This document shows, piece by piece, positions 146 through 51,114 of a stretch of 64,000 nt of DNA (position 1 is its first letter; every line of letters begins with the position of its first letter). The translations under genes were made by a program, and so were the position numbers. Source of the stretch: Albula goreensis (Eukaryota > Chordata > Actinopteri > Albuliformes > Albulidae); the NCBI GenBank assembly GCA_022829145.1, contig CM040758.1:22562575-22626574 (forward strand). Reading direction: 5' to 3'. The notes below the pieces were generated by a model, which had not been told where the DNA came from, did not search any database, and saw nothing but the letters and a program-made list of their open reading frames with translations.

Positions 146-262
146 GCTGCAGAATGCAATGGCAAGCTGTTCATCTTCCACTCCGCCATGCCTACTGCTG
201 AGGCTCCTGGGAAACTGAAGAACAGGGACGACAGGAAGCTCATCAACACCGACAAAGAGAAG
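146..262 (+). CDS. sec24d: sec24d exon a (trunk domain)
   Basis: 117 nt, phase 0 at both ends, acceptor ctgtctgtag and donor gtgcgt. It encodes [12 protein letters not shown] and [17 protein letters not shown], a highly conserved block of the SEC24 trunk domain. A CTCF-like motif overlaps the acceptor region. Earlier exons of the gene are not in the window. Confidence 0.9.
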
Positions 263-3200
263 GTGCGTCACCGCTGCCCATCCTGAGGAAACAACAACAA
301 CAATCAAAGGTTCCACCTGAAGACATTCAGTCATCTTCAGATACCATCTTTTAGGCAGAGAGATAGACAGACAAGAATACAAATGAAAGGTATACGCAAC
401 GTGAGACCTCTAATTTGCAGTAACAGCAGTGATGTTTAAAGATGGCATGAACCTGTTTGAATTCATGTTATTTTACTCCAGTGGTCTTTAATTCTGGTCT
501 TAGGGGACCACGAATCAGACCCAGATAGCCAGATGAGGTGAGCTAACCATGTACGTGCCTGTTTCAGTTGGTCAGTAAGTGCTGAGTAATTATCTCAATA
601 GTCCACTGCCTTGTTAGGCTTTTTTCTTAACATGAAGTAGCTCAAAGGGCCTGCTGACCCAGAGTAAAAATTCCTGCATCTTTTTTCTGATTAGTTCCTC
701 CTCTAGTCCTACTGGAATATTGCATTTCTTTGGCATTTTTATGTGGGTGTAGAGACTTTGTAAACTGGGTTTACAGTAAGGAATTAAAAAAATGTAATCC
801 ATAAAAGAACCACTGACCACAAGATCCCTTGATCCTTTTAACGTTCTGTGAAACTCATGGTCTGTAAAGTAGCCATGTCGTCAGTTGCTGTGAAAATGAA
901 GATTCTTTGGGCGAACAAGCCAACTAATGACTCAAAAGCCGACCGATATATTATTTTCATATCATTAACATTTTTAAAACCTAATAAATGTGTAAAATAA
1001 TACGGTGAGGTAACTTCAACTTTTATTCGACTAAAGAACCAATGATATACATAGAACTATTTTGTTAAATGCATCATAAGTTTGATATGAATGATAAACA
1101 CTTGTAAAATAAGTCATAAAAACAAAACAGTGATCTCAATAAATAGAAAAGCACACTTGTAAATTTCAATAAATATTGTGCTGCCAATTTCTGAGCCGTA
1201 AATGATGTAATGCAGCATCAGGCCAACAAACAGGTAAAGCAAAAAAATAATCAACAGCTGCTTTTAACCCCGCCAGGATGAGTCCTGACAGTAATCTTAA
1301 AATCTTAGGGGCTAATGTAAAGCACACACATGTTGTATGGACAAGCTGTACAATGATAGTTAATACAGTGCATGGTAACTCCTGTATGAAGCACACATAC
1401 TGTATTGACACGCTGTATAGTGAAGGTAGATACAGTATTTTAAGGATGTCAGGTGTAAAACACATGTATGCTGTATGGATAAGTTGTGTAAGGATAGCTA
1501 AGATACTATAATATCCTCTGAACTCTTATAAAAACATACGCCCACAGACACATGCTGTAAGACTGCGGCAGGGATTGAATCAACATTTGTCCTTAGTTTT
1601 GGCTAACAATGAAATGCATGTGTTTATTTCTATCTTCAAAAAAAAGCAGTTTGATGATTTAAGCACTCATGGAAATGAACTTGCCGAAGCGTTTCTGTAT
1701 AGAGACAGCAGGACTCGCTAATGTCGTTGTTAGAAAAAGATAATGATAAATGTTGATTGAGTCCCAGAGCCCTGTCTCCTGTCTGTCTGCAGACGCTCTT
1801 CCAACCCCTGAAGGGTGTTTACGAGCAGCTGGTGCAGGACTGCATCTCCATCGGCTGCTGTGTGGACCTCTTCCTCTTCCCCAGCCAGTACGTGGATGTG
1901 GCCACCATGGGGTCCGTCTGCCTGCACACAGGGGGCTCCATTTACAAGTACAACAACTTCCAGGTACAGGCGGGGCCAGAGGGACACTAATGGAGTATTT
2001 CAGATAAATATGATCTGATTTATGAATTGCATATAGTGTTAATTATTGGGCCAAACAGGTCTTTTCAAGAATTTGTTTAGTATTTTGTGGTATACTCAGT
2101 AAGTTTGGTCCATCGGCATTAGGCACTATAAACAAAACAAATGACAGCAGGTAGGCAGCATGTATCATAGTAGTCCATGTGTTTATTACCGGTTTTTCAC
2201 ATGCAATCGGTACAAAAATAGCTTATTCTATGATTGATTTAAGAAAATACATACTGCCATGCACAGATAGGCTGAACAGTTATATGGTGTAGACTGTGCT
2301 GCCACCTAGAGGACAAACAGACACTTGCTTTTGTTACAGGTTTCGGTGGATGGGGACCATTTCCTTAGTGACCTGAGGAGAGATGTGGAGAAACCCATTG
2401 GATTTGATGCTATCATGCGAGTTCGGACCAGCACAGGTAATCAGCCTATTACATTGGTACATACAATGCGCTGTACTGGTATCCAGTTGCTGGTTTCTGC
2501 TGTGTTGTAATAATCAAGTGCCTAACTCATTATGTGAGGAATCAACACAAATTGTGCCCAAGGCCTAATTTTGTTGTGTATTTGAACGAGATTACAAAAA
2601 CCTGTAGACAGGAGTTTTATGTCCTGTCATGATGTATCTCAGCAAATCAAGATGGGAAATCCTGCATACAGGAATTAAAAGTCACAGCCTTTTTTCAGTT
2701 AGAAATTAATTTCTTCACAAAGTTCATCAAAAAATACAAACCAGTATCACACCCATAACCATGTGTTAGTTTTTTACAGCATTAGAAAAACAAACAAAAA
2801 ATCAAAGGAAAATTGAGTATTGAAATGACTCTGTCCACATAGACTTCAAAGAGCTGGCTCTAAGTTCACACATGGTAGTAAATTTAATAATGAAATAGTG
2901 TCATTCTTTGTTAGAAGATCAGTTAGGGTTTTCATATTTATTTATTATTTATTTATGTAACCAAACACAAACGTATCATGTGTTTTGTGTTGTGGTTTGT
3001 GCTCTTTATTTAGTTGTAATTTTGTTTAGCTGTTAAAGCTGTCCTTTTCCTTTGCCTTTGCAGGCTTCAGAGCCACAGACTTCTATGGGGCCATTTACAT
3101 GAACAACACGACGGATGTACAGATGGCCGCGGTGGACAGCGACAAAGCCATTGTGGTGGAGTTCAAGCACGATGACACGCTGACCGAGGAGACCGGAGCG

Positions 3201-3484
3201 TTGATACAGGTGCGGTGCTCCTACTCCGAGAGTTTAACCGAGTCACAAGGCTGCACATCTCCTCCTCTGCTACTCTCCATTGTCCAGTCAGCTGCCCCAG
3301 CTTGGCCTCTGCTTATCCACACCTAATACCACTGCTCCAGGGTCGCACTTTGCTGGGTTCAAGCCCTACCCCTAGATGGCACATCTATGAACACAACTAT
3401 TATGGTTTGCAGAAAAAAGATCTGAAAATGGAAGCGCATGTTCAAGGTCACGGAAAACTGCATTACAGTGAACTCACTGTGATT

Positions 3485-3576
<92 letters not shown>

Positions 3577-6500
3577 ACAGTGCGCCTTGCTGTATACAAG
3601 CGTTGGAGGACAGAGGCGTTTGCGGATCCACAACCTGGCCCTGAACTGCAGCTCACAGCTGGCTGACCTGTACAAGAGCTGCGAGACTGACGCACTCATC
3701 AACTTCTTCGCCAAATCCGGTAACGGAGTCTGGCCACGGCTGACCTTTCTCACAAATGCTGTTGTTGTAACTAACCTAAGGAAATATTTATTGAATGACC
3801 TTATTTATGAGATCTTATTACACCAAATAATTGGTGTGACATTCATTTGAAAACCCATAATTGTTAGATACCCCTGTGCATGCAAAGTTCATTTTGCAGT
3901 TTGGTGTGTAACTGTTGCAGCAACATAGCTGTCATGTTCTGCATGTGTGAAGTTGCCACACATAGTTGCCAACTGTGTGAATGATGTCAAATAGTTTTCA
4001 AATAAAGATGAAAGCAATAGCTTTAGGCAATGAAGTGTGTTTCGACAGTGACAACGTGGGTTTGCACAATTAAAGTAGAGCTTTGAATATTTTCCTACAC
4101 TGGTAATGGCACTTTGCTCAGACAATATATAAGGTGTGTTGTGTGAAGTGTGTAACTCGTCCTTCACTTAACGAGTTAGTTTGCCCAAAGCGGACCCTTC
4201 CCTCAAAGGCGTCCGCGCCAGAACGTTACACCAAAGTGTCAGCCGTTGGCTTGGTTTGAGCCTCGCCGACTCGCTCACTCAAACACGTGTTCGCCCCCCT
4301 TCCAGCATACCGTGCTATGGTCAACCAGCCCCTGAAGGCCGTGAGGGAGATCCTGGTCAGCCAGACGGCTCGCATGCTGGCCTGCTACAGGAAGCACTGC
4401 GCCAGCCCGTCCGCCGTCAGCCAGGTCAGATTTAAATACAGCGGTTATTAATATCTGCTTGCTTATTAGCTGCTATAATCCACTGTGATTTCCTCAGCTC
4501 ATATTTTATGATATGAAATAATATATCCCTAGTTGTGAAACAGCTGATAATTTACACCCATATTATACCGTAGTGTGAGCATTTTATTGAAGCTATTCGA
4601 ATTAAGTACGCGTGCGGTTACCTGGATATAGTGGTAATTCTGTAGATCAGTGTGTTATTTCCCAGTATGGGAAGACCAAATGCTCCTGTGCTCAGACAAC
4701 ATTACTCAAGTGACCTTAAAAATCATCCACCATCTATGTCCAACCTGACAGTGACCTCAGTCTGAAAAAGGCAGAAATCATTTTAAAGTGAAGTTTGTAG
4801 GTCAAGGCTCCAGTCATAGATATTATAATATTTTCATACTTGCTTGTTATGTCCTGCCAAACATGTGGCTTTATCAGGATGTGTACACTTAGCTGAGTGC
4901 CTGATTTCATTTTTTTTTAAATCCTTGTTTGGTCCTCATATGAGTGTCTGCAGTAAAGTAGTTATGCCATTATCAGTAAGCGTCCATCCAGCTGTCTGCC
5001 TCTCTGGTTTGCTTTGACAGCGAGGTCCTTATCTCTCTTCCCTTTTTATAGAGTTTTCCTTTTGTGGCTTTTTTAACGTTCCGTGGCCCTGTAAGGCCGG
5101 TTCCCAGAGACGGGCCACACAGGTCCAGACGTCTTAGCCATCATGCCCATAAACAGAGCATTCAGAGTCTGTGTGGGAATACCCAGGCCATTAAATTACA
5201 CTAACAAAGACCTGGTGGCTCTCTCGAGACTCAGGGAAGATACTCAGGTTACACATCACAAGGCAGCTGGCCTCACGTGTGTCATGAACAGTCTGAGCCT
5301 TGTGTTTGCAGGTTTGAGTCCTAAAGTCCTGAAGCAATTCACGGTGCATGGAGCAATTTATATGCGCCCCTTTGCAACACAGAATACTCATATTGATTAA
5401 GCTAAGTTATTGGTCTAAGTTAAATTTATTACAAGTACAATACAGTACATCAGCCCCGCATACATAGGCATAGAATGCAAGCTGTAAACATTGCTTTATT
5501 GTGTAGCAGTAAGTATTGTAAGTGCCTGTGTAATAAAATTCTATGTCCTCCTCTTCATCAGCTGATCCTGCCGGACGCTATGAAGGTGCTCCCTGTGTAC
5601 ATGAACAGTCTGCTGAAAAGCCCGGCCCTGGTCAGCAGCACGGACCTCTCCACGGACGACCGCGCCCTGCAGAGGATGACGGTCACCACCATGGGCGTGG
5701 AGGACACCCAGGTCCTCTTCTACCCCCGGCTCATCCCGCTGGTGAGGACACGGGGGCGCTGGGGTTCGCAGGCTGGGAGGGGGGTTTGGGATGGGGCAGC
5801 AATATTTTGTAATATCTTTTTTTAATCAATGGGCAATGAAGGAGAAAACGTTTTTTATGAGTAAGCTGGGACATACATGTTGTCATTCAGTTGTTGAGTG
5901 TTTCATAAGAAGGGACTACGTTTTGTTGAATTTGCCAATCAAATGGATAAAAGTACACCATATTTTCTATAAATGGGCATTAAGCTAAGTGGCTTCATAG
6001 TTAGCTGTTAGTGATACCTTCCTCACCTCCTGCCCCTCCACCTCCTTCCCCAAACACAGCTCAACATGGAGGCTTTTGGTGAGGGTTTGCCGGCGGCCGT
6101 GCGCTGCTCTGAAGAGCGTCTCTCTGAAGGAGGTCTGTTCCTGCTGGAGAACGGCGCCATCTCTTCCTGTGGCTTGGACAGGCCTGCCCCTCTGAGCTCA
6201 TCCAGAACCTGTTCAACGTTCCCTCCTTTGCCCACATCGGCCCAGATGTGGTGAGACACCGCCCCCTGGTGGCATTGTGTGCTTAATGTCCCAGAACTTT
6301 GGGAAACTGCATCTGGTTCACTTGTAGGAATTTATGTCATGGTTGGCTTTTAAATGAGCTTGTACATCATAACCTCTGCATCCCAAAATGCCAGAACTAC
6401 TGAACTTCCAATCACACCAAGTTTTAACCTGCATGTGTGTCACATACTTGAGAAAACATTAAAGATTTCACTTTTAAACTTACAGTTGATTAGTAACCAA

Positions 6501-7414
6501 AGCCAATCTCCCTAGTTCAATTGCTCAAGGGCCCAACAGTAGCTGGACTGCCAGACCAGTCTCACCTTAGCCACTAGGCTTATGCCCCCAACATTGTTCA
6601 ATTTATATTGACCACTCACATTATAGTTACAAATCAGACAAACAGACAGCTAGGTGATGATAGCACACAAATTAGGCTATGGTTAAATATCTTATATGAA
6701 ACCATGTGTCTGCAAATTAGTCCACTCTGAGGCTGTGGTTCAGACTTGAGAAAATCACAAATACAGTAAAGTGAGTTCAATTTATAGTCTGAACAGTTAT
6801 CTTGGTTATATTGATGTGTTCTTAGCTAAAAATATTGAAGGCTTTTGTTGAACAGTGATTTTGTCACAGTGAGTCCTGCATGAGTGAGTGAGAGTGAGTG
6901 AGTGAGTGAGTGAGTGAGTGAATGAATGAATGAATGAATGACTCTGTCCATCCATCCCACAGAAGTCTTTACCTGAGCTGGATAACCCTCAGTCTAAGAA
7001 GCTCTGGTCCATCATTGAGAGAATCAGGCAACAGAGGTGTCATTCCTTGAAGGTAAAACTGAGAAAATCTAGCAAAAAAACAAGCCTGCCTTCATTCTTC
7101 ACCCTCAAAGTGCAGCATCATGATAAACATGAATGCATTCCACCTGCCTGTCACAGTTTCATTGCCGTATGGTTTTACTTGAATAGCACAATGTTAAAAT
7201 ACGAAATGATTTCGCAAGATAAGCCTAAAGCAGACATAATATGTATGCACACCTTCCTCACGTGTTTTCCCAGCTCGTCATAGTGAAGCAGAAAGACCAG
7301 CAGGAAGTGCTGTTCCGACAGCACTTGGTGGAGGACAAGGGGCTGCATGGAGGCGCGTCTTACATGGACTTCCTGTGCTTTGTCCACCGAGAGATCCGAC
7401 AGCTGCTTTCCTAA
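146..7414 (+). CDS. sec24d: SEC24D-like COPII coat protein, C-terminal part (10 exons, frameshifted)
   Basis: SEC24 is the cargo-binding half of the Sec23/Sec24 inner COPII coat, which packs cargo into vesicles leaving the ER. Ten exons join in phase (146-262, 1793-1963, 2340-2436, 3064-3209, 3581-3719, 4306-4424, 5562-5741, 6060-6250, 6963-7052, 7274-7414), all with GT-AG borders. They give about 463 residues of a roughly 1030-residue family protein; the N-terminal half lies before the window. In order they cover the end of the trunk domain ([11 protein letters not shown]), the beta-sandwich ([19 protein letters not shown]), the helical domain ([35 protein letters not shown]) and the gelsolin-like domain ([32 protein letters not shown]), ending EIRQLLS. 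KYNNFQ, MNNTTDV and [21 protein letters not shown] favour SEC24D over SEC24C. A one-base deficit near 6156 breaks the frame, so the copy is damaged or misread there. Confidence 0.93.
1312..1512. repeat. degenerate tandem repeat, three copies of about 70 bp
   Basis: The string gtaa/atg(a)agcacacat...ctgtatgga(c/t)aag(c/t)tgt recurs near 1318, 1385 and 1454 with substitutions. It lies in the first sec24d intron of the window. Confidence 0.7.
1793..1963 (+). CDS. sec24d: sec24d exon b (trunk domain)
   Basis: 171 nt, 57 codons, phase 0 at both ends; acceptor tctgtctgcag, donor gtacag. It encodes [17 protein letters not shown], then [17 protein letters not shown], then [11 protein letters not shown], the end of the trunk domain fold. 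The string SVCLHTGG replaces the LVPQLTGG that I recall from human SEC24D. Confidence 0.92.
2340..2436 (+). CDS. sec24d: sec24d exon c
   Basis: 97 nt starting in phase 0 and ending one base into a Gly codon; acceptor ttgttacag, donor gtaatc. It encodes [19 protein letters not shown] and MRVRTSTG, the trunk to beta-sandwich junction. Confidence 0.92.
3064..3209 (+). CDS. sec24d: sec24d exon d (beta-sandwich)
   Basis: 146 nt that complete the split Gly codon and end in phase 0; acceptor tttgcag, donor gtgcgg. It encodes [37 protein letters not shown] and [11 protein letters not shown], a core part of the beta-sandwich domain. The wording is much closer to SEC24D than to SEC24C. Confidence 0.93.
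3491..3574. repeat. (GT)42 microsatellite abutting a splice acceptor
   Basis: Perfect 84-nt GT tract, followed only by ccacag before sec24d exon e. On the minus strand it makes Thr/His open frames that are artefacts. Confidence 0.97.
3581..3719 (+). CDS. sec24d: sec24d exon e (beta-sandwich/helical)
   Basis: 139 nt, starts in phase 0 and ends one base into an Ala codon; donor gtaacg. It encodes [20 protein letters not shown] and [20 protein letters not shown]. Its acceptor is unusual: (GT)42 is followed by only ccacag, so there is no normal pyrimidine tract. Confidence 0.93.
4306..4424 (+). CDS. sec24d: sec24d exon f (helical domain)
   Basis: 119 nt; its first two bases finish the split Ala codon and it ends in phase 0. 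Acceptor cccccttccag, donor gtcaga (a weak match). It encodes [20 protein letters not shown] and [20 protein letters not shown], helical-domain sequence. Confidence 0.92.
5562..5741 (+). CDS. sec24d: sec24d exon g (helical domain)
   Basis: 180 nt, 60 codons, phase 0 at both ends; acceptor ctcttcatcag, donor gtgagg. It encodes [20 protein letters not shown], then the acidic [19 protein letters not shown], then FYPRLIPL. Confidence 0.93.
6060..6250 (+). CDS. sec24d: sec24d exon h (gelsolin-like domain), carries a 1-nt frameshift
   Basis: The flanking exons require a multiple of three here, but the exon is 191 nt. The first frame reads [20 protein letters not shown] up to ENG at 6147-6155. The conserved continuation, [20 protein letters not shown] then [11 protein letters not shown], begins at 6158 in another frame, with two bases (6156-6157) where the family has one codon. 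Unrepaired, the last two bases (tg) join the a of the next exon to give TGA, so the end of the gelsolin-like domain would be lost. Acceptor cccaaacacag and donor gtgaga look normal. Confidence 0.9.
6259..6272 (-). promoter_or_regulatory. CTCF-like motif, exact core
   Basis: Minus-strand CCACCAGGGGGCGG fits the core CCASYAGRKGGCRS exactly. It starts 8 nt into the intron after sec24d exon h. Confidence 0.45.
6515..6595 (-). mobile_element. tRNA-derived SINE fragment
   Basis: Read on the minus strand, the end of the segment gives taagcctagtggctaagg, a tRNA A-box-like head. The rest (tgctcaagggcccaacagt on the plus strand) matches wording I recall from common fish SINEs. Truncated, inside a sec24d intron. 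Confidence 0.5.
6881..6940. repeat. (GAGT)n/(GAAT)n tetranucleotide tract
   Basis: About nine GAGT-type units, then five GAAT units, ending 22 nt before the acceptor of sec24d exon i. Confidence 0.92.
6963..7052 (+). CDS. sec24d: sec24d exon i
   Basis: 90 nt, 30 codons, phase 0 at both ends; donor gtaaaa. It encodes [20 protein letters not shown] and [10 protein letters not shown], after the gelsolin-like core. A (GAGT)n/(GAAT)n tract ends 22 nt before the exon. Confidence 0.88.
7274..7414 (+). CDS. sec24d: sec24d terminal exon with stop codon
   Basis: 141 nt, phase 0; acceptor cacgtgttttcccag. It encodes [20 protein letters not shown], then [20 protein letters not shown], then IRQLLS and TAA at 7412-7414. 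This is the conserved C-terminus of SEC24 proteins. Confidence 0.95.
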
Positions 7415-12467: not shown

Positions 12468-12515
12468 TTATAAAACGTTCTCAAACAACTGCATGGATCT
12501 CATTATATTCTCATC
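12468..12515 (-). CDS. kcnip4: kcnip4 terminal exon with stop codon
   Basis: 48 nt; acceptor ccccctcag. It encodes [15 protein letters not shown] and TAA (read from tta at 12468-12470). The C-terminal helix matches KCNIP4 except that it ends in Leu instead of Ile. Confidence 0.95.
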   Translation of the reverse strand, partial: DENIMRSMQLFENVL

Positions 12516-15500
12516 CTGAGGGGGCAAAGAATGGCAGATGAATACGACATGGAAACATCAGTTAAACCAAAATAATAAATCACTGTCAAATGTGGATCGG
12601 TGATGCATCAAACTGAGCTGAAAGGCCAGCAGTGTCTGTAGATATGTGACAAGCAACAGGCACTAGAGAGGAACTACTCTCAATTTGGCCACCACCCCCT
12701 GGAAATGCACTTTCAGCTACCAATAACCCTTTAGCCTGAGCTAGCATGTTAGCAGCAGCACACCGGTCCACCAAATGTGATCTATAACACAGGTCATGGA
12801 AAATTCAGAGGCTTAATTGAACAAGTCAATTAAAAAAAAAAACATAAAATTTGAAAGCAAAATATCAGATTACTTGTACTAATGCTGGACTTCCTTCTCC
12901 ACACTTACAGAGATCAATACTACATAAGAAATCTGAATAAAGCACAGAGAGTACTCACTTTTTGGCAGCAGTCAATGAATTCATCTATGGTTACCACTCC
13001 ATCCTTGTTTTTGTCCATTTTCTAGTGAGAAGGTAACAGAAAGGATACGGGAAAAATGCATTTAGTATATACTTATGTAATGCCCAAATTCTGTTAACTA
13101 CTAGACCACAGAATGCCCTTTATTTTTAGCAATACATTTAGGAAGATTTTTTTTTTTTTTTACCTGGAAAACATGAAAGGCTGAATAAAGGAAGTGTAAG
13201 AAGTATAAGTGTAAGAAGAAAAAAAACAGCACTTGATCCAATTTATTTTCTCATGAATAATAACAAAGTGCTTTACACAGAACGCCAGCCCTTCTCCGAC
13301 CACAGCCAAAAACCGTTTGCCCAAAAGATGTGTCTTGCTACGTTAAATGCTGAGCCGTAATGAAAGGCAGTGTTACCTGGAAGAACAGCTCGACGTGCTG
13401 TCTGGGTGCTTCATCCTTCAGCATGGGGTATGTGCACCTCCCCATCATGTCATAGATGGCTCTCATGATGTCCAGCATTTCCTGAACAAATATATTCATC
13501 TTTTCAGTCTTATGATGTAATTAATTTCCCCTCCAAACACAAAAGCGTAGACCAAGTTTGTATGCCATGTTAAAACACAAAAGTACAAAGTTGATGGATA
13601 AACTGAAAATGATCATTTTGAGAGCACCTCTTTAAGTGAGCCTTACCTCTTTAGTTATGTATCCATCTTTGTTAATGTCATACAGATTGAAGGCCCAGTT
13701 CAGCTTCTCTTGCACTGAGCCCCGTAGCAGGATAGAGAGACCCATGACAAAGTCCTGCAACCATTACCACCAAGAGAAGCATTTGAAAATCTTTTTCATT
13801 TTCAAAAACATTTACTTAAAATATCGTGATATTGGCATGAACAGTACGATAAATAAACACAAGACTACAAAATCTATAAACATGGGTTCATAGACCAAAC
13901 ATTTATCTACCACCGTTATGGATTCTTCATTTGTTCTCCTGAAAGAACCTTTAAAGGTTCTGCTGAGATAGTAATGTCTCGAAGGGATAATGAGACACTG
14001 CATTAGTCCATTTTTCGTTGAGATATAATGTTAAGACAAACTTTTGAACATATGGGATAACGCTCAGATTCATGCAGTTGTTAACTGAAGAAATGCAAAA
14101 TAGTTTGAAATGAGCACAATGCAACTTGCTTAGCGCTTACCTCAAAACTCACAGAGCCATTGTGATCAGTGTCAAATGCGTTGAACAAAAAATGTGCATA
14201 CCTGGATGCATCTGGAAAAAATAAACAAACAATGATTTAACTGGGGTTAGGCAGTTATTTGTCTTCAGGGTCCAGTCAATCCAGCACAGGGCACAGCGCT
14301 ACCCTTCCAGAAAGTGTAGATTTACGTGATGTAATTTAGAGATTTTTTTTTTTTCGGTTTGTAGTTGATTGAATTGGCTGTTGAAATCTCATTACCCTTT
14401 CGAGCCAGATCGCTCCCCAAGGTCTGCTGTGTTTCACAAATAAAACAAACCACCACAGTCCAGACCTCTCTTATGCATATTTTCTCAAAAGAAGCAGAGA
14501 AAACATTGGCTACACCCCCTCCCCCAATTTTATTATTGGTGCTAACACCATGGGCCAACTGTAATTTAACCTTGCATATTGCTTATTTAGTGCATACTAT
14601 TAAGACAGTGTTCAGCATATATGCCTTTGATTAGCAGATGTGCAAGGCCCAGAGTGATACAGATTGTATGTCCTCTCTGTGTGCAGTAACAGCAAGGTGC
14701 TTTAATGGGGGTGACTGGGGGCAAATGACAAGCAACACAAAGTCCTGCAACGTGTGAATGTCATTATCTCTAATGTCGCTCAGATCAAACCGAGTATAAA
14801 GACGCACGCAGACAGTCGTCAGCAAGCTTCCATCACTGCTGACACATAATCATTTATTTCCTTGTAGCATTCTTAGGGGGATGACAGGCGAGAAGCCCAA
14901 AAGCGAAGAAGAATGGGACTTAATCTTAATTCGAGACATTGTATTTAACAATGCCCATGCTAACGTCCCTCCAGCAATGTCATTGTTTTAGGTCCTCCTA
15001 CTTTGTATCTATAAATGGAAACTTTTATTTAGAAATATTAAAAGCAAAAAAATTTTTGACTAGCACATCTGGGCAGTGTGAACACAGCCCATCAGTGAAC
15101 GGTAGAACTTCAAAGAATATTCTTTTCTGAGAACAGGTGTTTGCATGGCTCCATGATACGTAATGAGAGCGCACATTCAGATAGTTAAGTCATTTGTTCA
15201 TTAATATGGATCCCACAGGTAAACAACACAGACTGAACTGAACCATACAGATGTTAAAAGGCTACACAAGTCAATGTGAAGGTCATTAAAACATGTTTTT
15301 TTAAAGCGTGTCTAAAAGTCTCAGTTTTTGTATAAATGATAAAGCTTTTCCACAGTCACCTTTGACTACCTATACAGGGCGTTCACTCTTCAAACACTCT
15401 CAATTATTCAGATTAAAATGTCTGTCGCTGGAGACAGTCGTGCGGCCCACACCAAAAGAAAGCATCAAGTACATGAAATGGAAATTAGAGAGGCGCTAAC

Positions 15501-18500
15501 TCTGGGTCACATGTTTTAATTATATAAAGAATGCATTTACATTGGCGTTACCTCATTCTAACACCCCCATAAGTATATTTTTAAGGATAATACTTACCGC
15601 CCTGGGGGAAAAACTGAGCATAAATGCTCTTAAAGGTGTCTTCATTAACAACCCCGCTTGGACATTCCTGTATAACAGGAGACACAAAACACAGCAGAGT
15701 GCATCAGAACATGGTCTCCCTTGCATATTTTAAGCAGACAAGTTAATTAGGATAGAATCCACAAACGTCCAAATGTTTTACTTCAGAGGAAGCATTTTAT
15801 TAACCTAATAAGGAGTAACTGCAGCTGATAAAGAAATAGCATTCTCTGTGCAGCTGTTGGGAGTCCATTCTGACTTGTAGCCTATGTTTTATTTTTATTT
15901 TCTTTTTCATAAAACTCATTTTGGATGAAACAATGAAGTGAATTGAGAAAATAAATCTGCAAAGCAACTCTACAGCATTTCTTTATTTATGCTCCAAAGA
16001 CAAATAAGCATTATAAACTGAGCACATTGAAAGTAGCTCAACTTTTCATACAGAAATTAAATATCCATACAAAATGAATGCACTGACCATTACCATTTCA
16101 TAATGTTACCTTGCCACTGCATAAACATTCTAATAATGTCACAGCCAACATAAATTTTCATCGGTCAATAAAATGCAAAAGGAGTACCTCTTCAGCTGTC
16201 CAAAGTTACATTTTTCTTTTTCCTCCAACCCAAAGTAAATAAATGACATCATGAAATTCACAACCTGACAATGCTTTAAACTGATGGGTCTTTTCTGTGT
16301 ACTTTTTCCGCACTTGAATTGAACTATTGTGATTTCAGCCGCATCTATAGGCTGTCTCCTCTATGCTACCTTTTAGACCCAGCCCTTGCTATTTGTGTTG
16401 CGACTGCAGATGCAGCAGTCAACGTCCCTCCAGAGAGACCATGGAAGATGCAGCAACAAATGTAGCTTGCCACTATGTTTGCAAATTCCAAACTGGGAGA
16501 CAGGATGTGTGAAAAACAAACACATGTACAACACACTGTACACCTGCTGAATCCTGTTGAATAAAGAAAACGCATAAACAGACTTTAAGATCGTTTTGTT
16601 TGTGTGGTGGGAATTTTCAGGGAACGTTTTGCCTGTTCTGGTCCCTCTTATGTGAAGGGTGAGGATGAGGATGAGGAAGGTTCTGTGTGTACTTACGTTT
16701 TTGAAGCCTCTGTAGAGGATCTGTAGCTCTTTTTTCGTGAACTTGGTCTCCGCCTCCAGATGCTCCAGAGCCTCGGGACGATGGCGCACCATAGACTGCT
16801 CCAGCTCATCGTCCACGCTGTCTGTAACAGAGACCACAGTATGCACGCACTTAACAGCAAGATCATGCTTGTGTTTTCTGACTCTTATTATGCATGTGTG
16901 TTATTTTTGCAGACAGGTATTAAAATGCAGTGATTGCTTAGCCAATTTTCTGTGTTGCCAAAATCTTTTGAACCGCATTTGGAAAGGATAGATTTCTTCA
17001 GCCCTCAGTTTTTTTGGGGGTGCCTCACAGCCCAGTGAGCCCTCGCAAGAATCATCTATCAATAATATTCATCTTTTACTCAAAGCTGCGCTGACAGCAA
17101 GCTAAAGGCTTCTAGAGGTACTCTGTAATTTTGCAAAATGCAATAAGGCAATCTAATGCAGGTAAAGGGAGAACCTTAGAGCATCGTTCTGCAGCTGAAT
17201 TTTAATTCTGTCATGATGAAATGCATAAATGTTATACAGGAGGTAAATACAAGGCCATAAAAAGAGGCTCCCAAACACAGGAACATAAATGTCAGTTGCT
17301 TTGTCCCCATCATCATCTCAATTTTACGCCACGTAAGCCATGTTACAGTAAAAGAAATGCGATGCTTTTCAAGAGCATGCCGGACGAGAGCTCAAAGTCC
17401 CTCTGCTCTCATAAGAATTTCCTGAAACATTAAAGAATATGAGTCTCACCAAAGGAGTTTAGACTCCAGTTCTAAGTCTTCTTTTTCTTGGATGAAAAAA
17501 TACTCACAGAACCAACTTACAGAACCTAGAAGATGCAGATGGACAATACAAGGTTGTGAAAGAACAAATGCTAATACACAATTCCCAAGTATGAGTCCTT
17601 AAGTAACCTGGACCAGTCAGAACAGTCGTAATTACGAAGGTAAAGGGATCAAAACAAATCCAACCTCCAGCAGTTGAATGCTCTGACTGCAGAAATGCTT
17701 TGACATTTTAAATTCTCCAAAGCTATATCCAGCTATGGTCAATAGGATTAGAGTTAATTTACTGTTAGCAGGGAACGATAACGAACCCCCCCCCAAAAAA
17801 AAAAAAAAAAAAGAATTGAAATCTTGTACATTTTACAAGGGTACTTAAAGTGAGACTATTTGAGAATGGTCCATGTTCCAAAGGCAGCACAAAGTCATAG
17901 ACTATGTCTTAATGAATAATGCAAATTTAAAGGTTTGAAAATCTGTCAGCTTCATGACAAAACTGTAAATCACCAGTTGCTGGGTTTTTATAAAACACTA
18001 CCAATTCAATTTAGGAAACACTATCTAGACATTGCGATGACTCAGTGATTATGGGAACCGTTCAGACATCAACAGCAGGTCTGTCACCGTCTTATCATGT
18101 CAGCTCAGAACACCGATCAATTCCTCACCATGCACCTGGGTTAGGACCCCAGAGCTTGGTGAAATGCAGCCCTATGCATGACCTTTGTTTAAACCCTTAT
18201 GTGTTAATCATGTAAAACAGTAGGCTTGCTTTAAACCTCCTCTTTCTAAGGCCCATTAAACTCACAGCATCCATTATACCACACCACAAGTACCAATGCC
18301 TTTCAGCTGAGATGCACATCTCTGTGTCAGCTATTCATTAAAAATGCCCATAAACAGCAGGGCAGACTGTGAAGGAAAGGCCATTCGTAACTGATTCTCC
18401 TTTGTATTGAGGCTTTGTTTGATGTACCTTTAAGTATTTCGGAGCAAATAATTGCAATGATAACAAAAGCTCTGTGTCAGATTGAAATATTTCCATCAAC

Positions 18501-26200: not shown

Positions 26201-29200
26201 TCCTTTCATTATCTATAAGCCCATGGAAATATGATAAGGAAAGCAATGACCTGTTATTTCATTTTCACACTTGTTAAAAAATGGTTGGAAAAATCATTCT
26301 AGCATCAAACTACAGGGTTTCTACTTTAATGTTTTTGTTTACTGACCAATAAATTGGCATGTGGAGATTAAATTTCAGATCATAATGTAATCTTCAGGCA
26401 CTGACAAAAACTTCATGAAATATCTTGGAGAAGAAGTGAGAAGGGGTAATTTACAAACATTTATATTGTCTTGCCTTTGCAGTGTGTAACAATTTACATT
26501 TAAAAAACAGACCTTTCAGTGTGGCTATTGCCCCAAATTAGGCAGATTATATTATAACACTGTCACATTCGTCTTAATTCAGCGTGTGGTGTGTGCACAA
26601 ATGGTGAAGCTATGTGTTGAATCATCATATCTTATGGATGATGAACCTGAATAATTAAATGACTGATTATTGACTTAAGTTTTATAAACCAGAATCAAAA
26701 ATGTTTTCTAATAGACTGAGAGCGAGCATTATTAGCACAATTATCACTAAATAACTCTTCCTGTCACTTTAAATACAAAAAAGATGCTACTCATCAGTCT
26801 GGTGACTCAACAGAATCATGTCGGACTGGCTATCACCCTCTCAATCGCATAGCTTATGCTTCAGTGAATTCAACAAGTACAAGCAGGGAAGGGACCCCTG
26901 TAAGGCTAAGACTACGAATAGACCACAGAGCGTAGGATCGAGCAGGGGTCGGACCTGGGCATGCTCACCTGCACGCCCCCCGCCGCCGCCCCGCCGCCCT
27001 TACCTTGTGAGAAGCTGATGAGCCCCAGCAGGTGGAGGAGCTTGAGGGAGGCGCACACGATCAGCACGATGCCCACGGTCTGCAGCCCTTCGATCTCCCA
27101 TGCCCCGTACGGCACGCCGCCACCGCCGCCGCCCCCACCCTCGCCCACGCCCCCCGACTCCGCGCTCCGGTTTCCCGTGTCCCGCTCCACGGCCGCGCCC
27201 GACTCGCAGCTCCCACAGAGACGGAAGAGGAGCCCACACCCCTCCCTGTGCCAAACAAAGAGCCTCCTCCTTCTCTGTTCTGTGAGACACGACCACCTGG
27301 AGCGTTCCAGCCTCCCTCCTCACAGGTGCCTCATAGGAAAAGTGGCGAGTTCCACCTCTCCAGGCTAGGGGGCGCTAGCACGGAGAAGGCAGTGCTGTGC
27401 TGCTTTAGCCCTGTAGTTGAGAGCCTCTGTGCTGAGCTGCAAGGAGCGAGAGTCCTGTATCTGTTAGGAGAGCACTCGCACCTTCACTAAAATACAGGGG
27501 GGGCTGAGACAAACCAGCCACACACCCACCCCTGCAAAGACACGAACACACACACCTACTCAGACCTGCACAACTGTAAATACACAATCATAAAGAAAAT
27601 ACATACACTTACACTTTACTCTCCCTCTTGCTCACATGACACACACACAGACACACATATTAAATACCTTCAGACATATATCAAATGAAAAGGTGTTTTA
27701 ATAGTTGCTTTAAATGCTTCTTCCAGCAAATAGATGAACAACTTGCTCTGTCTTTATACATCAACTGACAGTCAGCAGGTCTGCTCAAACCCAGAAGACC
27801 ACAGAAGAAAAAACACCCTTTTCTGAATGGCTGAACAATCACATATTCAACCAGACAAGTGAGCTAAAGCGTTTGATCCAAGGGCACATTTATCTAATCT
27901 TGGACAAATTTGCTTTTTATGACAGTCAATACTTTTCTATAGACAATCACATATTCAACCAGCAGCTAAAGCAAATGATTACTAATCTTGGACATTTGCT
28001 TTTTATAAATACTCCTTTAGATGCACTCAATTTATATAAAGAACTTTGTAACTTGGGTGAAAGAATTTATGTGGCCATGATAGATGTTCAACAAACCAAG
28101 AACACTCAACCCTGAATATACTTCCCTATAACATGGCTGTGCCTGACAAATTCTTTCAGAATAGCATTATAAGATTAAATAAAAGACATTGCAGCTCAAT
28201 GGAGTGATACAGAGCTGTGCACTCCACTGTAATTACAGCCCAGTGAGATCAGTGAGCAGCGCCCCCTGCTGGAGCTGAATTACATACAAAAATACACAAA
28301 TTAACAAGAACCAGCTCCTGTGCCAGAAATTGAAATAAGTGCATTAATTATTTCAGTCAGTATACTTTTGTGACTCTCCCAGCACAATGATCACTTCAAG
28401 TGTGCTCAATAGACAGGTTTAATGTATGTCTGAAAGGTCCTGGACCAAAATGCAGGCAGTGAATGATATCCCTAAATTAGTAGTACAGCAGTATTAATCA
28501 TTCGTCTCTGCATCATTGTAAATGTACAGGGAACCTGCACCATTGTGTTCTGGTTTAAATATCCATGGTGCCCTATGCCCCCACACCCTCTCTCAGTGCA
28601 GTTTGTGATAATGCTGTTTTACTACACCCTTCTGGTACTTTTCCATCCAGCACTTTACAGAACTGCAGCACCAACCCAGACCTTTAATCGTGACACCTAA
28701 AGGCAAAGATGGTATACTGCTCAGAATGGGCAAGAGGCTAAAAGGGGCAAAAAAGTGACGACTCAAAGCACAAAAAGTGATGACTTTATCGGAACGGCTT
28801 ATGACTGAACTCCAGCGAGGCGTCGGTAAGCAGAATGCAGGGCGCTCCAATCAGCAAAAACACAAAGTGTTAGCGATAGCATACCATCTAGAGCCATGAG
28901 TCAGGTAATATATACTGCCACTGCTTCATAACCACTAAACACCTTCATTATTCATCCTCATCATCATCATCCTCATCATAATTACATCTAAGCTATGGGA
29001 AGAAAGCAAAAAATGGGCACAGAAATGCCGCGACAATTCTGGCATTTATGAAGTTGCATCAGGTGCATTTTCCTGGTATACTTTGTGTCAGCCATTTTCC
29101 TTAGAAGGCGATGGTGATGTCAGTTGTTGCTAACGGTACAGAATGTTCTTCTTTCCTGTTCTTTACCGCATGTTAAGGTAATTTTTCTGCAGAAATGTGC

Positions 29201-32200: not shown

Positions 32201-35200
32201 ATCAGCATTTCTGCTTTGAAGCTTTACTAAACAGCAGCATATCTGTTCCATGCAGCTGTGATCTTATTGATCCTAGATGCGTATCTCTGAATTTCATTAC
32301 TACTCAAGATTCTGCTGTGAATCCACATTGAAGTTTCCTATAACAGCAGGGCTACTTCATATGTAATCCAACTTTCAGAAAGAGAAAAGGGCACTTTATC
32401 AAACTCAAATCCATGAATACGGCATTGGGTAAAGTAAATAAATAAATCATTTATCATGACTGATTCCATGCGATCAAAAAAAGCAAATCACTCATACAGT
32501 GCAATACTTTGCGTTTCTTGTAACCGCTAATATTTTCTATAGCATGACAGACACTCTATATCAACTAAGATAAGATGGGGAAAATGAACAAAGGTTAATT
32601 GCTGAATTACCCTCCTGCTGAATTAGTGTCATTAATCACTATGGGAACAGAACAAAAGGGGGGGACATCTGTCACAAGATATATTCCTTAAAGTCACTCA
32701 TAAGTTCTCTTAATTGAATGCACCAGGTGTCTGCTGTTATGTAGCGGCTTCACCCGATCATCATGAGCTTCTAGCTTTTATTTGTCCCCATTATTTGTTT
32801 ATACAGATTGGGTATGTAAATACAGCATTTCAAAATAACTGTCCCACTCAAGGCAGTGTCCCCTTCAACCATTCCAGGTTAAAGTCAAGCAGTATATCAC
32901 AGTATCTAACACTGAGAAGCAGCAGCGGAAGTGAGTGCTGTTTTAAAAGGCTGAAGCTGCTTTCCTCTCAAAAGACCGAACAGCTTGGCCTTGGTTATGC
33001 TATCGGCTATCTGACTGACTGGCCCTAGAGCACATGGTGATAGTGAATTGACTTCCCTCAGATGCAACAGCACATATCAGAGCTGTTCGATCTGGCAGCT
33101 GCACATCTTTAGGTCAAAGACCAATTGGCAAATACAAACAAACCTTAATTGCACCAATCACATGGGGGCTCTTAACTCTCTCCTTAAATGCACCAATCAC
33201 ATGGGGGCTCTTAACTCTCTCCTTAAATGCACAAATAACACTCTCCTTAAATGCACCAATCACATGGGGGCTCTTAACCCTCTCCTTAAATGCACCAATG
33301 ACATGTAGGGGAAAGGGTAGGTAAAGGTGTGCCAACCAGGAAGAATTGGGAAACCTATGAAGTGCATGTGTCAAAAGAATTACTGGTACGCATTTAAAAA
33401 CAAATAACATGATTGTGTATTAATGATGTAAATGTAAATCATACAGCCAAATAAATGAAAAAATAAAGCAGCTAAAATTCTGTTCAATGCATAAACTGGC
33501 ACTTCTGTGATATATATAATAAATATAATAAAAACAACAACAAAACATCAATACACTAAAAGTTGACTAGACAGCCAGAAAAAGTGACAGTTGAAAACAT
33601 TTTTTATAGTATTAGGCAGAATGATGGATGCTTAAGAAATAAACTGAACTTAATTATATAGACATAAGCATAATTAGATGAATATTTTAAAATACATTAC
33701 CGTTGCTTTTTTACTTGTTTGTCGAAGAACATACCATTAGTAATTCTGTGTTTTTGTCAGGCTGAAGAAAAATGGTCTAATAAAGAAACATTAAACAAAT
33801 ACTTGGGAAAAGGCCAAAGGCAACACTGTGAAAGAAGGTCTAAAACATTTTCAATTCAAATGACAGGAGTTACTTAATATCAGACTATACAACATTATTT
33901 TTAAAAACATTAAGGTCATTTTAAAGTGATTATTGAATTTCAAATACCAAACTGAGCTTATGAAAAATATAATAATGTCAAAAGTTACTTACATTTTTAA
34001 ATGGAAAAATAAATAAATATGCTGGGCAAAGTAAATGAGCTGACAAGTCTAAGCACAGCTGAAGAACAAGATCAAACCCATGTAAGCAGAATCTAAACAT
34101 ACATAGAAGTACATACATATAATACATGCAGCATCGATCTGCATATCTGGTGCACTTTTTTGATCCTTAATGTTGTTGAGAAGGAAACATGTGGTCATTA
34201 GTAATCTGTATATAAAAATGATACATGAAAATCTTTGCTTTGGAGTTTGAAGCAGCCGAATGTGCAGGAGTCATACTTGAGACAACATGGCTGACCATGT
34301 TCCCGAGCTGACATGCTTGTGAACCCAGTATCATGCCTTGAAGAGACTGATTTTTCTCACATTTGTCCCTCTAAACCATGTGCCATTTGTGTCAGTGGTA
34401 TACTGCAAAGTTTCGCTGCAAACATTTCACTCTGAAAGAGGATAAAGACTCATGGAAGGAACTCATTGTTTCAAAAAATGGCTTGCTGCTTAGAGCAAAT
34501 CAATAAATTACACTATATATAGCTGGGAAACAGCATTGTCTGACATTTATATTGCTGCCATAACTCTTGCACTTCACTTTCCTCTTAGGAAACGGATGTA
34601 TAGAGACCCGAGTAAAAGAACAAAATGACCCTCGATAATATAGGGACACCTAACCTTGAAGGACATTTGGGCAAGGGCAACTTATACTTAAAAAAAAAGA
34701 CATTCAGCTAAAGGTAAGCTAAAAATGTAGAGCATGTTTGGTCATGTGATAAACATCATGGCATCTGTCTTTTTTATCAGATTTGTGCTTTTATGAATAT
34801 TTCATAATATCCCTAACGAGACCTGACCTGAGATCAGTTAATTGTCAGTTGTAATTAAAGTGAATGTAATTAAAGAGCTCATAAGACAGAAACCACCAAA
34901 CACATAATAAAATTCATTCATTAAAAACACAAAACCGATGTATAACATTGGATTCGAGGCAGGAGTCTGCAGGTCCTGATGTAACTCATGAGGTAGCTGA
35001 GAGGGCACTGACCCAATAAAGGAGCAGGGAACAGGAAGCAGAGAGAGGATAACACTGTCAGGATAACACATGCGTGGCAGTTTCTTAAGCTGTAGTGATT
35101 GACTGACTGAGTATCTGCAGTGATCACTACTGGTACTGTACCACTTTGGTTATCACTGCAGAAGTGTGACTGATCAAGGAGACAGGAGGCTACAAGACAT

Positions 35201-51062: not shown

Positions 51063-51114
51063 ACCAATCAGGAGTTAGGATGCTGTTTACCAATCAGGAG
51101 TTAGGATGCTGTTT
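51063..51114. repeat. 26-bp tandem duplication, two exact copies
   Basis: The unit accaatcaggagttaggatg plus ctgttt occurs twice in a row without a mismatch, which suggests a recent duplication. Confidence 0.93.

Follow-up and report, generated by a model that had tools for sequence, protein, structure and literature searches.

A single-base frame shift in a gelsolin-like-domain exon of sec24d from Albula goreensis, probably a consensus error of the assembly

The window, a stretch of 64,000 nucleotides of the Albula goreensis assembly, begins inside sec24d, and one exon of that gene encodes conserved protein in two different frames. The question raised by this locus is whether the animal carries such a lesion or whether the fault lies in the assembled sequence. 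SEC24D is a COPII cargo adaptor with a role in protein export. The 3' half of its gene occupies the + strand over the first 7.4 kb of the window as ten coding exons (1384 coding nt); the zinc finger and the N-terminal region are upstream of the window. Nine of the ten exons have open frames, at 153-262 (110 nt), 1793-1963 (171 nt), 2340-2436 (97 nt), 3064-3209 (146 nt), 3581-3719 (139 nt), 4306-4424 (119 nt), 5562-5741 (180 nt), 6963-7052 (the penultimate exon, 90 nt) and 7274-7414 (the last coding exon, 141 nt, ending in TAA), the final two each being open in its own frame. The remaining exon, 6060-6250 (191 nt), holds much of the gelsolin-like domain. Splice sites are canonical, with AG before all ten exons and GT after the first nine, and the normal TAA is kept, in agreement with the sequence-only reading, which had described all the other exons as intact. 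A (TG)45 microsatellite (3484-3574) ends 6 nt before exon 3581-3719 and replaces the ordinary polypyrimidine tract of its acceptor. UG repeats next to an acceptor promote skipping of human CFTR exon 9; skipping of the 139-nt sec24d exon would shift the frame.

The identity of the gene was determined from the protein encoded by the last four exons, with X written at the shifted codon. It matched SEC24D with 257 bits, SEC24C with 215 bits and SEC24A/B with 68-72 bits (E-values of 6.4e-76 for SEC24D against 5.3e-63 for SEC24C), so the best match is SEC24D rather than one of its paralogues SEC24A, B or C, and the name sec24d given earlier to the gene is sustained. The C-terminal 198 residues of human SEC24D (PDB 3efo_B) align to these four exons without a gap, X standing for the shifted codon; the difference is that the window has two bases, not three, at that one codon of the gelsolin-like domain. 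In a tblastn search with the C-terminus of human SEC24D, nine of the ten exons were matched. The exception, 6963-7052, was identified through the match of the last-four-exon protein to SEC24D. For the seven exons that start at 153 to 5562, this human sequence was the only comparison, save that 5562-5741 was also part of the comparison with the PDB sequence of SEC24D.

Adjoining sec24d on the opposite strand is a kcnip4-like gene (12468-16821, - strand) with seven open exons, whose best PDB match is Kv channel-interacting protein 4 (393 bits, against 351 for KChIP2). A candidate first exon for it is found at about 27004-27091 on the - strand, where a segment of 29 residues is followed by a GT donor; the segment may be an alternative hydrophobic KChIP N-terminus, which it resembles. 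Elsewhere in the window there is a compound tandem repeat at 33143-33303, with periods of 39, 24 and 63 bp and 89-94% matches, to which no gene was assigned, and a perfect direct tandem duplication of 26 bp in two copies at 51063-51114. There were no Rfam matches at the gathering score and no tRNAs, and of 141 pattern matches to related DNA in prokaryote contigs none was confirmed, as expected for a vertebrate gene.

Exon 6060-6250 is preceded by AG and followed by GT, and its neighbours 5562-5741 and 6963-7052 join it at phase-0 boundaries. Its length should therefore be a multiple of three, which 191 is not. Translation of the first 96 nt (6060-6155) matches the PDB sequence of SEC24D with an E-value of 1.9e-5, up to chain residue 662, and translation of 6158-6250 in another frame matches it with an E-value of 3.5e-9, from residue 664. 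Exactly one SEC24D residue lies between the two matches, and in its place the window has the two bases 6156-6157. The Pfam Gelsolin profile (PF00626) is divided in the same way, positions 4-26 being matched in frame 0 and 28-52 in the other frame, so that no continuous frame runs through the domain, which is split at 6156-6157. With 15.6 and 16.9 bits, neither half-match reaches the curated cut-off of 21, and the halves joined by X together with the following two exons give 53.2 bits.

The position of the shift was examined by an ungapped scan in which every placement of one 2-nt step was scored with BLOSUM62 against human SEC24D and SEC24C. Against SEC24D the best placement is 6156-6157, with a score of 209 compared with 69 when no shift is allowed; against SEC24C the same placement is best, with 134 compared with 39. 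Adjacent placements score 8-9 lower against SEC24D, and against SEC24C from 2 lower (6159-6160) to 8 lower (6153-6154). Elsewhere on the + strand the highest score among 9030 overlapping windows of 191 nt is 5, and when the downstream bases were shuffled 2000 times the gain reached at most 57 (mean 13), against the 140 obtained through the shift. The frame shift at 6156-6157 is far beyond chance, and sec24d is here one base short of the family's codon count, at a single place only. The single-base frameshift proposed earlier for this 191-nt exon is thus present, the frames changing between 6155 and 6158, and the interval 6147-6165 given for it brackets the site.

Read as written, frame 0 continues past the shift for 31 unrelated residues, of which 3 are identical to SEC24D, and then meets a TGA made up of 6249-6250 and, across the exon junction, 6963. 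This is the junction stop that had been predicted, and it ends 89 nt upstream of the last exon junction, where about 90 nt had been estimated. By the usual rule, nonsense-mediated decay (NMD) follows when a stop precedes the last exon junction by more than about 50-55 nt; since 89 nt exceeds that distance, decay of the sec24d mRNA as written is to be expected, as the sequence-only reading had held. Counted from the exons, 108 codons are lost from the shifted codon onward. A truncation of nearly equal size is known from the zebrafish bulldog allele m757, sec24d Q931X, which lacks the last 99 amino acids and whose stop is slightly further downstream than the one in the window (PMC2860987). Four truncating alleles, m757 among them, have phenotypes that are practically the same, which the bulldog authors take to indicate a null, and the sec24d transcript is slightly reduced in bulldog mutants, a reduction that they attribute to NMD (PMC2860987). 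The allele m757 was induced with ENU as a point mutation and has been verified in animals, whereas here a shortage of one base is seen in one assembled sequence only. If the shift is real, the allele should be null by analogy, because the comparable m757 truncation is described as such.

It is scarcely credible that alternative splicing or -1 ribosomal frameshifting restores the frame at the RNA level. Skipping of the whole of exon 6060-6250 would be in frame, both neighbouring boundaries being of phase 0, but at the cost of a segment of 64 residues, and both frames are open from 6128 to 6250. The splice scan covered acceptors within the exon (6060-6249), donors at 6065-6329 and internal GT..AG removals of at least 31 nt, and none of these restores the conserved protein, so that rescue by alternative splicing was rejected. 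The acceptors that reach the downstream frame (6182, 6197 and 6206) cut away the first half of the exon and more. Among the GT donors that would give a multiple of three, use of 6098 would lose the greater part of the exon and 6278, 6287 and 6323 bring in a stop, and all 12 open GT..AG removals delete conserved residues. Acceptors in the upstream intron would meet a stop at 6125 if used in the downstream frame. Programmed -1 frameshifting depends on a slippery heptamer of the form XXXYYYZ. None is present in the two-frame overlap at 6128-6250, and the possibility was rejected for that reason; the sole heptamer of the exon, at 6083, lies before the overlap begins, and a ribosome slipping at that point would likewise run into a stop by 6125.

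The extent of conservation on either side of the shift bears on its age. Conserved columns were taken as those common to human SEC24D and SEC24C over the C-terminal 198 positions, the shifted codon being left out, and 82 of the 102 are kept over all four exons: 26/34 in exon 5562, 13/17 before the shift, 10/11 after it, 7/9 in exon 6963 and 26/31 in exon 7274. Identity to human SEC24D over the same segments is 37/59, 19/32, 21/31, 13/30 and 32/45, exon 6963 being the least conserved of the four. The G+C content of second codon positions is low on both sides of the shift, as in coding sequence (0.44 before and 0.35 after, each in its own frame), compared with 0.74 when reading continues in frame 0; third positions discriminate little (0.66 before, 0.74 after, and 0.65 in the continued frame 0). 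An unprocessed pseudogene or decaying duplicate would be marked by several lesions or by lost conservation, and neither was found, as there is one lesion in the 1384 coding nt and most conserved columns are kept. A processed pseudogene is ruled out by the presence of introns. A second copy of sec24d was sought in the window with tblastn, which gave only chance-level extra matches (E of at least 1.4), and with blastn of the ten exons, which returned the exons themselves and one match of 17 nt (E 0.08). The shift is recent or not real, since the nine other exons are open, conserved columns are kept and searches of the window gave no second copy.

Three causes had been offered in the sequence-only reading, a consensus error, a segregating loss-of-function allele and a decaying duplicate, with a leaning to error or recent change. 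That leaning is supported here, and long-standing decay is disfavoured by the conservation. Polyploid fish lineages carry duplicates, and one of two sec24d copies might have been newly freed from constraint in such a lineage, the other being elsewhere in the genome, which would be compatible with the window. We nevertheless consider this quite improbable, as the ten exons contain no other lesion of frame or splice site, conserved columns persist on both sides of the shift, the window itself yields no second copy, and the bulldog authors report that they found no sec24d duplicate in the zebrafish genome (PMC2860987). A recent, real loss-of-function allele, segregating or private to the sequenced animal and probably heterozygous, is unlikely. 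Its mRNA would be subject to NMD, and in any protein made the product of the last 108 codons, from the gelsolin-like and C-terminal region, would be replaced by the 31 unrelated residues. Such an allele would suit the unambiguous lesion in the sequence, the position of its stop, which ends 89 nt before the last junction, and the conservation elsewhere, which implies that any real lesion is recent. Against it, natural frameshifts in conserved, developmentally important genes, heterozygous ones included, occur less often per genome than consensus indels do in a typical draft assembly. Comparable truncations do exist in laboratory fish, and early compensation by sec24c has been reported in zebrafish, but homozygous truncation mutants there have skeletal defects, so that an allele of this kind should stay rare (PMC2860987). 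Among the titles and abstract openings listed for sec24d and for assembly errors, none reports this lesion, which is no proof of its absence.

These data cannot separate an error from a recent real allele. On balance the shift is probably a one-base consensus error of the assembly at the GGCGCC spot, and we infer that the base shortage had its origin in sequencing or assembly. A base would have been missed at this G+C-rich, CpG-containing site within the gelsolin-like-domain exon. In favour of an error, the lesion is isolated in an otherwise conserved gene, as would be typical of a consensus error; it is the only one in the 1384 nt of sec24d, and none is found in the 590 nt, including the stop, of the kcnip4-like gene. 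The protein remains conserved past the shift (identity and columns as given above), with splice sites and stop in place. Short indels are described as the commonest consensus error where vertebrate genomes were assembled from CLR long reads, unpolished CLR sequence is placed at Q30-35, and genes with frameshift base errors are given as fewer than 3% once the project goals, including Q40, are met (PMC8081667). False SNPs and indels are reported to correlate with higher GC content, and in older Sanger and Illumina assemblies false indels to be concentrated in the 5'-proximal parts of genes (PMC9516821). In the 1974 coding nt of sec24d and the kcnip4-like gene together, the number of errors of any kind expected is about 0.2 at Q40 and about 0.6 to 2 at Q30-35, and one indel in that length does not reveal the quality of the assembly.

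Several points weigh against an error. No base is repeated four or more times in succession at the site, where the longest runs are of two, so that this is not the most error-prone context. The GC-rich spot had been put forward as a context for error; it is indeed G+C-rich and CpG-containing, but it offers no homopolymer run, so only its base composition and CpG would favour miscalling. Counting from the 3' end, the shifted exon is the third, a position that fits the 5'-proximal pattern only in part (PMC9516821), and no lesion is seen in the remaining 1.8 kb of coding sequence that was examined, so that the assembly is not visibly error-ridden. The false frameshifts described in PCDH17 of the zebra finch and TLK1 of Anna's hummingbird are similar in being short indels in coding exons that arose as consensus errors (PMC9516821; PMC8081667). 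Those were demonstrated by a second assembly or by read coverage, whereas the present case is known from assembled sequence alone.

If the shift is a consensus error, the sec24d of the organism would be intact, no biology would follow, and the matter would be one of annotation only: a pipeline may call sec24d truncated or insert a false intron of 1-2 bp, as has been reported for PCDH17 in the zebra finch (PMC9516821). A real shift would make this a naturally occurring null of a gene on which the secretion of cartilage matrix depends. A natural segregating null, tolerated in heterozygotes or buffered by sec24c, is unlikely; it would correspond in the wild to the bulldog and vbi mutants of the laboratory, and would allow tolerance of, or compensation for, the loss of a COPII adaptor to be studied in an animal.
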